Source: Elusimicrobia bacterium RIFOXYA2_FULL_47_53 (GTDB lineage Bacteria > Elusimicrobiota > Endomicrobiia > Endomicrobiales > XYA2-FULL-47-53). Taken from it: DNA of 64,000 nucleotides. The stretch is taken from the NCBI GenBank assembly GCA_001800315.1, contig MGVE01000011.1, forward strand, positions 68,851 to 132,850, given 5' to 3'. Positions within the stretch are counted from its first letter, which is position 1, and the number at the start of each line of letters is the position of its first letter. Positions 26,282 through 32,835 of the stretch are shown in pieces. A program made the translations under genes and the position numbers. Below the pieces are notes generated by a model. That model had not been told where the DNA came from and searched no databases. It saw only the letters and a list, made by a program, of their open reading frames with translations.

Positions 26282-27289
26282 ATGCCGAGACAAGGAAGAA
26301 TAAACATAGAAGGTGGGATATATCATGTGATGCAGCGTGGCATTGAGCGTCGCGAGCTGTTTAAGAGTGACGCTGATTGCCAGGAGTTTGTCCGCAGGTT
26401 TTCGGAAGGATTAAAGGATACTGGGCACAAATGTTACGGTTGGGCGCTTATGCCCAACCATTTTCATTTATTGATACGAGCTGGGGAGAAACCGTTAAGC
26501 GATCTAATGAGGAAGCTACTAACCGGGTATGCGGTATATTTCAACAGGAAGTACAAGAGGAGCGGGTATTTATACCAGAACCGATATAAATCTATATTGT
26601 GCCAGGAAGATAGTTATTTAGTGGAGCTGGTGCGCTACATACATTTAAACCCGTTGAGGGCAAAGATAGTGAAGGATATGGGCGAATTAAACAAATATAA
26701 ATGGAGCGGCCATTCGGTAATAGTTGGTGTGAATAAGGCGCCATGGCAGACTATCGGCGAAATACTTAAGTATTTTAGCAGTAATAGAACTGAGGCAATC
26801 AGGAAATACATTAATTTTGTGGAAGAAGGTGTGAATAAAGGAAAAAGGGAAGAATTGACGGGTGGCGGGTTAAGGCGGAGTGCGGGTGGAAAATGGAGCG
26901 GGGTGCTTGCGCTAAAAAAAGCGAAAGAATACCGGCAGGCAGACGAGCGCGTGTTGGGCGATTCCGGGTTTGTAGAAGAAGTGTTGAAAAGCGCACGGGA
27001 AAAGGTACAGAGAAAAGAGATGCTTATAAAAGATGGTTGGGATTTGCGGAAAGTTGATGAGAAAGTATGCGAAAAGTATAATTTTAAGAAGGGCGGTTTG
27101 AGTAATAGGAGCAGGTTAAATGCAGTATCAGAGGCAAGGAAAGTATTTATGTATTTGGCGAATAAAGTATTAGGTATAAGCGGCAAGGAGATAGCAAAAT
27201 ACTTAAGTATAACAGCGGTAGCGGTTTCCAAGGGCATAAGGCAAGGTGAAATAATATGTGGCGGGGAAAGCCATAAGTTAATTAGTTAA
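26282..27289 (+). CDS. REP-associated tyrosine transposase (Y1/HUH, RAYT type)
   Basis: A 335-residue single-strand DNA transposase of the Y1 (IS200-like) superfamily. The N-terminal catalytic domain has the beginning MPRQGRINIEGGIYHVMQRG, the HUH motif in MPNHFHLL and the tyrosine in YLVELVRYIHLNPLRAKIV. The C-terminal third is Lys/Arg-rich and ends with a helix-turn-helix (GISGKEIAKYLSITAVAVSK) typical of the longer RAYT members. The reading frame is intact. The last codons and stop lie within the right inverted repeat. Such proteins cut and move REP-like palindromes; the palindromic repeats at 12.1 and 28.7 kb are possible substrates, but nothing here proves it. Confidence 0.9.
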   Translation: MPRQGRINIEGGIYHVMQRGIERRELFKSDADCQEFVRRFSEGLKDTGHKCYGWALMPNHFHLLIRAGEKPLSDLMRKLLTGYAVYFNRKYKRSGYLYQNRYKSILCQEDSYLVELVRYIHLNPLRAKIVKDMGELNKYKWSGHSVIVGVNKAPWQTIGEILKYFSSNRTEAIRKYINFVEEGVNKGKREELTGGGLRRSAGGKWSGVLALKKAKEYRQADERVLGDSGFVEEVLKSAREKVQRKEMLIKDGWDLRKVDEKVCEKYNFKKGGLSNRSRLNAVSEARKVFMYLANKVLGISGKEIAKYLSITAVAVSKGIRQGEIICGGESHKLIS

Positions 27290-27491: not shown

Positions 27492-27505
27492 GGGAGGAAT
27501 TGACG

Positions 27506-27943
27506 ATGAAGATTATTGATACTTTTGTATTTTCTGATGACCACAAATCTAATGAAGGAGATTTAATTATTAAGATTCCTTGCAACATTAAAACTGAGAA
27601 TGCACTATTTGATGTGTTATTAAAAGGTTTGAGTTTTCCATATTTTGGCTGGAATTGGAATGCACTTGATGATTGTCTGCATGATTTTGAATGGTTACGT
27701 GCAAAGAAAATAATTATTCAACATGATGATTTACCGCAAATGCCGGTTAATGAACTGAAAATATATTTAGAAGTGTTATCAAGTGCAGTTTATGATTGGA
27801 TGAATGATTCCGCACATGATTTTGTGGTTGTATTTCCTGTCCAAGAAAAGGCACAAATTGTCAGTATTGTTGGAGAGGAAACTGTTATGTCAAAATTTAC
27901 GGATAAACCCATTGGTGAGGAGTTAAGAAACCCAAACAAATGA
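27506..27943 (+). CDS. Barstar-family RNase inhibitor (immunity protein)
   Basis: A 145-residue protein with the barstar core: LFDVLLKGLSFPYFGWNWNA and LDDCLHDFEWL. Barstar uses the helix around this site to plug the active site of barnase-type RNases. A GGGGAGGA Shine-Dalgarno site lies 7 bases before the ATG at 27506; an upstream in-frame TTG at 27500 is less likely. The base composition is clearly more AT-rich than the housekeeping genes. The cut-down RNase domain directly upstream shows that this was a toxin-immunity pair. The C-terminus (about residues 115-145) extends beyond the usual 90-residue barstar. Confidence 0.82.
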   Translation: MKIIDTFVFSDDHKSNEGDLIIKIPCNIKTENALFDVLLKGLSFPYFGWNWNALDDCLHDFEWLRAKKIIIQHDDLPQMPVNELKIYLEVLSSAVYDWMNDSAHDFVVVFPVQEKAQIVSIVGEETVMSKFTDKPIGEELRNPNK

Positions 27944-31876: not shown

Positions 31877-32506
31877 ATGAACATCAAAAAAGCAGATAAA
31901 ATACCATCTATAGTCGTTCCGAGGCTCTCCAGGTATTACAGGATACTCTTTGAGCTTGACTCCAGCCCGCTTATTTCCTCAAAGGTATTATCCGAGCACA
32001 CCGGTTTTACCGCCGCCCAGATAAGACGCGACCTTGCTTATTTCGGGCAGTTCGGTTCTCCCGGCAGAGGCTATAATGTGGAGGAGCTTAAAAAAACCAT
32101 TAAAAATATTCTGGGCCTTGACAGAGCCTGGAATGTCTGCGTCATCGGCACCGGAAACCTCGGTATGGCGTTGCTCGGGTATAACGGTTTCAAGGATCAG
32201 GGGTTTGAAGTCGTGGCGGCCTTTGATTCCGATCCTGAGAAAATCGGGAAGACCGTAAACGGCATTAAGATTTTGTCAATCAGCGAGATGGCCAAAGTCG
32301 TGCGCGAAAAAAACATTCAGATAGGGCTTTTAACCGTGCCCGGCAGGGTCGCCCAGCAGGCCGCCGAGAATGCCGTAAACTCCGGTATAAAGTCCATTAT
32401 GAACTTCGCACCGGTTCACCTTAAACTTCCGGAAAATGTCAAGGTGCGTCATATTGACATGACGGTGGAGATAGAAAGGCTTTCGTTTATGATTTCAAGA
32501 GAGTAA
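31877..32506 (+). CDS. rex: Redox-sensing repressor Rex
   Basis: A repressor that releases DNA when NADH binds, so it reads the NADH/NAD ratio. It is 209 residues long. The N-terminal winged helix is VVPRLSRYYRILFEL with TAAQIRRDLAYFGQFG and RGYNVEEL. The Rossmann domain has CVIGTGNLGMALLGY and VAAFDSDPEKIG. It is last in an apparent nadC-birA-nitroreductase-LUD-rex operon, joining NAD synthesis and NAD(H) sensing. I found no convincing Rex operator in the window. Confidence 0.96.
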   Translation: MNIKKADKIPSIVVPRLSRYYRILFELDSSPLISSKVLSEHTGFTAAQIRRDLAYFGQFGSPGRGYNVEELKKTIKNILGLDRAWNVCVIGTGNLGMALLGYNGFKDQGFEVVAAFDSDPEKIGKTVNGIKILSISEMAKVVREKNIQIGLLTVPGRVAQQAAENAVNSGIKSIMNFAPVHLKLPENVKVRHIDMTVEIERLSFMISRE

Positions 32507-32543
32507 TTCAGGGAATTAATAAAAAGAGGAGGTGAATTACGCA

Positions 32544-32723
32544 ATGGCAGAGATTCTTGTGGTTGTAAGCAAAGTAAAGAAAATGGTGAAAGAGGCAGGA
32601 TTCCGCACCGGCGCCGACTATATAGCTTCCCTTTCCGGTAAAATTGAGGAAACGGTTAAGGCTTCCATAGAAAAGGCTAAGCTTGCCGGAGACAAAAAAA
32701 CATTGGGTTCAGAAGACATTTAA
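32544..32723 (+). CDS. Small bacterial histone-fold protein
   Basis: A 59-residue protein starting at the ATG at 32544, preceded by a strong GAGGAGGTGA Shine-Dalgarno site. It reads MAEILVVVSKVKKMVKEAGF, then TGADYIASLSGKIEETVKAS and ends KKTLGSEDI. The helix, loop and long central helix fit one histone fold. R21 sits in loop 1, and K52-T53 with D58 are in loop 2 and the last helix, like the RKTVxPxD ending of archaeal and bacterial histones. Small histones of this type are known from Bdellovibrio. It may compact DNA as a dimer. It lies alone between rex and the rpsB promoter. Confidence 0.72.
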   Translation: MAEILVVVSKVKKMVKEAGFRTGADYIASLSGKIEETVKASIEKAKLAGDKKTLGSEDI

Positions 32724-32739: not shown

Positions 32740-32767
32740 CCGGGCAAAGGCTTTGGCCTTTGCCCGG
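32740..32767 (+). terminator. Perfect 12-pair hairpin after the histone gene
   Basis: CCGGGCAAAGGC (32740-32751) and GCCTTTGCCCGG (32756-32767) pair fully around a TTTG loop, 17 bases after the stop. A G-run follows instead of a T-run, so it is a very stable 3' end structure but not a standard intrinsic terminator. Confidence 0.6.
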
Positions 32768-32806: not shown

Positions 32807-32835
32807 TTGAAACAAAAAATATTTTTTGGTATAAT
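32807..32835 (+). promoter_or_regulatory. Promoter of the rpsB operon
   Basis: TTGAAA at 32807-32812 and TATAAT at 32830-32835 are 17 bases apart, with an extended -10 TG at 32827-32828. The leader to the rpsB ATG is about 135 bases, long enough for feedback control by S2. Confidence 0.88.

Follow-up and report, generated by a model that had tools for sequence, protein, structure and literature searches.

A small histone of Elusimicrobiota related to HBb of Bdellovibrio, and its genomic neighborhood

INTRODUCTION

It was only in 2023 that bacterial histones, chiefly those of Bdellovibrio and Leptospira, gained recognition as true chromatin proteins. The closest described systems to the protein examined here are HBb (Bd0055) of Bdellovibrio bacteriovorus (8fvx, 8cmp, 9ezz, 9f0e) and the face-to-face histones HLp of Leptospira perolatii and HTkC of Thermococcus kodakarensis (9qt0, 9f2c). 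In the sections of Schwab et al. (2024; PMC11390915) that describe the classes, α3-truncated histones are defined by a layout with a shortened α2 and an α3 of 3–4 residues. The "bacterial dimer" class among them, itself defined by sequence clustering, has the common motif RKTxxxxD, keeps the helix-1 lysines, lacks the face-to-face residues R48/N52, and includes Elusimicrobiota among its named phyla. The HBb residues ranked as DNA contacts are N22, R57, S9, T53, T8, S24, K10, K12, K52, and K16, according to PMC11317129, where Elusimicrobiota also appears in a list of relatives whose DNA-binding residues are conserved.

The persistence of histone genes in Elusimicrobia is stated in a passage of a 2023 report (PMC10627809), and the family is therefore already reported from this phylum (2023, 2024). 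What is added here is a residue signature that runs through the phylum and a tight linkage to the complex I operon in many of its families, with rex as the neighbor in the family of the genome studied. Neither is mentioned in the passages of the published accounts that were consulted, and no laboratory study of the Elusimicrobiota branch was found in the literature. The gene lies in a stretch of 64,000 nucleotides from Elusimicrobia bacterium RIFOXYA2_FULL_47_53, hereafter called the window.

RESULTS AND DISCUSSION

A conserved gene with a strong ribosome-binding site

32544..32723, forward strand: histone gene, single-fold (α3-truncated, "bacterial dimer" type), 59 amino acids plus stop, recognized by phmmer, profile, AF2 fold, and orthologues
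32527..32536, forward strand: Shine-Dalgarno sequence GAGGAGGTGA, the strongest among 57 window genes

The coding region occupies positions 32544–32720 of the forward strand, beginning with ATG and followed by a TAA stop codon at 32721–32723. An alternative GTG start 12 bases upstream would yield 63 amino acids. Because this GTG falls within the Shine-Dalgarno sequence, and because the N-termini of orthologues (M-A/S-E/D) align to the ATG at 32544, the latter is the right start. Orthologues within the same order share 71%–85% protein identity. Comparison with one of them (L004) reveals 7, 5, and 37 differences at codon positions 1, 2, and 3, respectively (dN ∼0.09, dS saturated). Since orthologues differ mostly at third codon positions, the comparison indicates that the gene is real and that purifying selection acts on it.

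The source genome carries one copy of such a histone, a single fold without an added domain. A search of this genome with PF00808 found no further histone and missed even the gene at 32544, and PF09123 (DUF1931) gave no match. DUF1931 pseudodimers have two folds per chain (PF09123), unlike this protein with its 59 residues and one fold. Its net charge is only ∼+1.5 at pH 7. No Rfam families were found around the gene.

The duplex between GAGGAGGTGA and a generic 16S tail is calculated at −18.2 kcal/mol. The runner-up among the 57 window genes reaches −11.9 kcal/mol, even though each competitor was allowed its best start. An earlier note on this DNA had counted the site among the strongest in the window. 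Measured against rpsB and tsf, the codon usage of the histone gene does not point to unusual or high expression, and the histone is not separable from ordinary genes in this respect. The ribosome-binding site speaks for an abundant chromatin protein, whereas codon usage does not.

Sequence and predicted fold group the protein with HBb

When scanned alone, the 59-residue protein has no match in Pfam or NCBIfam. This means little, since the Elusimicrobiota branch lies beyond the range of the curated histone models. Among 84 relatives scanned singly in Pfam, PF00808 (histone-like) is the commonest family, although the matches are weak (11 members, best E 0.004). Direct phmmer searches match four distinct solved chains, all of which are histones: HBb/Bd0055 (8fvx; two constructs) at E 3e-7, HLp at 0.011, and HTkC at 0.13. 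A profile built from 78 Elusimicrobiota sequences again places HBb first (E 1.2e-12), followed by HLp (8e-9) and HTkC (1e-8), and yields no other match with E < 0.4. The earlier note had pointed to small histones in bacteria such as Bdellovibrio and had suggested a profile search, whose best match is indeed HBb and not another small family.

32565..32594, forward strand: predicted helix α1, residues 8–17, with invariant DNA-facing Ser9, Lys10, Lys12, and Lys16 (AF2; the equivalents touch DNA in HBb, PMC11317129)
32604..32612, forward strand: loop 1, Arg21-Thr22-Gly23 (alignment to HBb, conservation)
32613..32687, forward strand: predicted long helix α2, residues 24–48, the putative dimer interface by analogy with HBb (AF2)
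32694..32717, forward strand: loop 2 and α3, Lys51-Lys52-Thr53-Leu-Gly-Ser-Glu57-Asp58 (alignment, AF2, conservation)

An AlphaFold (AF2) model based on 84 relatives (pLDDT 87.5, pTM 0.63) has helices at residues 8–17 and 24–48 and one turn at 56–58, which is the arrangement of α3-truncated histones. The α3 of archaeal nucleosomal histones spans about ten residues, whereas this chain stops at residue 59 after one turn. In Foldseek searches, HBb, HLp, and HTkC are the top matches with a probability of 1.00. HBb superimposes with a TM score of 0.88–0.90 at 0.9–1.4 Å, and HLp and HTkC share the same fold at 0.81–0.83. With only 59 residues to align, the E-values from Foldseek are, as expected, modest (2e-3). 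A second structural aligner gives Z-values of 8.4 for HBb, 8.2 for HLp, and 7.5 for HTkC, with the next histones (full α3) at ≤5.8. Taken alone these Z-values are modest for a small helical protein, and they are convincing because the sequence search agrees.

An AlphaFold model from six close orthologues is a two-helix hairpin (pTM 0.40). Its alignment is shallow, and it is superseded by the 84-sequence model. This hairpin and the empty Pfam and NCBIfam scans are what one would expect if the protein belonged to another small helical family and resembled histones by chance. We assign that explanation a negligible probability, since it is contradicted by the profile and Foldseek results, as well as by the 84-sequence model, the direct matches to histones of known structure, and the rank of PF00808 as the commonest Pfam match among relatives. 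The protein is a genuine small bacterial histone, an Elusimicrobiota branch of the Bdellovibrio type. The observation made earlier for 32544–32723, that the 59-residue product fits a single histone fold, is confirmed, and the interpretation drawn from it is supported by sequence, predicted fold, and structural comparison. The outcome that the earlier note had named as damaging, a non-histone hairpin, arises only with six sequences.

DNA-facing residues and a phylum signature

The window protein resembles HBb in length, in its α3-truncated single fold, and in the helix-1 lysines, the loop-2 KT, and Asp58, with 46%–48% identity across the structural alignment. Most DNA-facing residues are kept. 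Six of the ten HBb contacts are identical (S9, T53, K10, K12, K52, and K16), and S9, K10, K12, K16, T53, D58, and Arg21 are invariant in all 78 relatives, so that every one of them has the α1 lysines of the HBb class (K10, K12, K16). K52 is present in 77. The loop-1 Arg and loop-2 Thr of the RT pair, recognized earlier from the sequence, are thus Arg21 and Thr53. The Asp that had been described as final is also present and invariant, although Asp58 is the last residue but one.

Other positions have changed. Loop 1 is one residue shorter than in HBb and the α2–loop 2 stretch is one residue longer, and Arg21 stands where HBb has Asn22. The first residue of loop-2 RKTxxxxD, the clamp Arg51 of HBb, is Lys in 74 of the 78 relatives and Arg in the remaining four, which supports the homology of this position. 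The K, T, and D of the motif are retained, and in most of Elusimicrobiota it reads KKTLGxED. Position 57, a DNA-contacting Arg in HBb, is Glu in 77 of 78. A Lys–Asp salt bridge might replace the Arg–Asp clamp of HBb.

In these alignments, the three differences (loop 1 with Arg21, Lys51, and Glu57) appear as marks of the phylum, where Lys51 and Arg21 were compared outside Elusimicrobiota with HBb, HLp, HTkC, and the doublets L039/L040 only. Because Asn22, Arg57, and Arg51 are replaced by Arg21, Glu57, and Lys, the geometry and strength of DNA binding may differ from those of HBb. The substitutions are natural ones at residues thought to set the DNA grip of HBb, and they offer a direct test of how the bending mode depends on them.

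The doublets themselves consist of two HBb-like folds in one frame of 133 codons (L039:3791–4189, and the same place in L040). They come from two "Proteobacteria" genomes of a pond metagenome, and are scored weakly as histone by NCBIfam.

A dimeric DNA-bending protein is the probable form

By analogy with HBb, two chains would pair head to tail via their long middle helices to form a handshake dimer. This dimer would sit on the DNA backbone at minor grooves by using the helix-1 lysines and the paired loops 1 and 2, and would bend DNA without sequence preference. The histone would then act as a nucleoid protein alongside the two HU homologues of the genome. We consider it likely that this α3-truncated "bacterial dimer" histone is such a dimeric, DNA-bending protein beside HU, with dimer formation, DNA binding, bending, and abundance inferred from HBb.

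HLp and HTkC are next best after HBb in both sequence and fold, and a few face-to-face-like histones do occur in the phylum (L106, L107). The protein might accordingly be expected to form a face-to-face tetramer that wraps ∼50–60 bp and does not bend DNA as a dimer. The tetramer-forming residues of HLp and HTkC are missing, however. The R48/N52 positions of face-to-face histones, which in HLp are R49 and N53 and are joined by R55, correspond to Ala45, Gly49, and Lys51 here. Among the 78 relatives they are Val/Ala/Ile, mostly Gly, and mostly Lys. A tetramer is therefore very unlikely, and the HBb-like dimer is the form we favor.

Distribution in the phylum and coexistence with HU

Orthologues are present in 81 of 294 Elusimicrobiota genomes and in 54 of 90 genera. 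Two large families (f6 and f13), which mostly keep HU, lack the histone in every genome sampled. These are the largest small-genome groups, mostly ∼0.4–2.4 Mb, and judging from genome size they may be gut-associated.

HU/IHF proteins would be expected to do a similar job, nonspecific DNA bending, although their fold is unrelated to that of histones. Genes of the HU family occur in 273 of the same 294 genomes, including two in the source genome. Because HU is nearly universal in these genomes, the histone accompanies HU and does not replace it. This contrasts with Leptospira, which lacks HU according to a passage in PMC12701072. A histone living beside HU provides a test of why bacteria keep both.

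Two Elusimicrobiota genomes with a dimer-type histone carry a second, face-to-face-like histone with R at −6 and N at −2 from RKT (L106:995–1174 and L107:1001–1168).

Linkage to rex and complex I genes

31877..32506, forward strand: rex, NADH-sensing redox repressor, ending 37 bases before the histone start (NCBIfam E 1e-76, synteny)
32740..32767, forward strand: perfect 12-bp inverted repeat CCGGGCAAAGGC-TTTG-GCCTTTGCCCGG, 3′ of the histone stop (z −4.2, without a T run)
32807..32835, forward strand: sigma-70-like promoter TTGAAA-17-TATAAT (consensus match only)

The gene order in the window is nadC, birA, a nitroreductase-like gene, a LUD-domain gene, rex, histone, rpsB, and tsf, where nadC, birA, and the nitroreductase-like gene are presumed identities, named by eye. 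The family's other genome (L108) has the same order nadC–birA–LUD–rex–histone, which also recurs in part in class members L018, L038, and L065.

The setting is different in many genomes outside this class, where the histone gene directly precedes Methyltransf_28 (PF02636), nuoA, nuoB, nuoC, and nuoD. The PF02636 gene lies on the same strand 3′ of the histone in 31 loci (some share a genome). Because the gap between them is often 10–20 bases, the arrangement suggests that the histone and complex I are encoded on a shared transcript in those families. PF02636 is the family of MidA/NDUFAF7, a protein that methylates a complex I subunit. NADH is sensed by Rex and oxidized by complex I, so that one redox couple is involved in both settings, perhaps by chance. 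For the question of when such histones are produced, the link to the complex I operon offers a starting point. The arrangement histone–Methyltransf_28 (MidA-like)–nuoABCD can be seen at L019:4001–8177 and in some 30 other loci outside the class of the window.

The position after an NADH sensor in one family, and directly before the methyltransferase and nuoA–nuoD in several others, could also indicate a histone-fold protein that regulates redox or respiratory genes and is not a global chromatin protein. Such a role seems unlikely, given that the neighborhood varies between classes of the phylum and that Rex-operator-like palindromes within the window are no more frequent than chance. Moreover, the DNA-facing residues are those that contact the backbone in HBb, which binds without sequence preference in the account given in PMC11317129. 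A more tentative proposal, which we regard as possible although doubtful, is that the histones of Elusimicrobiota constitute a separate subtype of bacterial dimer histone. Their rebuilt DNA surface (shorter loop 1 with invariant Arg, Lys–Asp where HBb has the Arg–Asp clamp, Glu57 for the DNA-contacting Arg57) would give a different bending geometry, and cotranscription with complex I in many families would tie the supply of chromatin protein to respiration. A nucleoid protein of the HBb kind remains our preferred reading.

The inverted repeat behind the histone gene is a possible transcript-end hairpin. It was not detected by a terminator scan, and no hairpin of this type is seen behind the same-family orthologue. 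A dispersed repeat is ruled out, since the sequence has a single copy in the genome. The promoter at 32807..32835 probably starts the rpsB–tsf transcript, which would set it apart from the histone gene.

Two other genes in the window were observed. Positions 26282–27289 encode an IS200-like (Y1) transposase family protein with a C-terminal DnaA-type helix-turn-helix (Pfam Y1_Tnp and Bac_DnaA_C), and positions 27500–27943 hold a Barstar-family (barnase inhibitor) gene.
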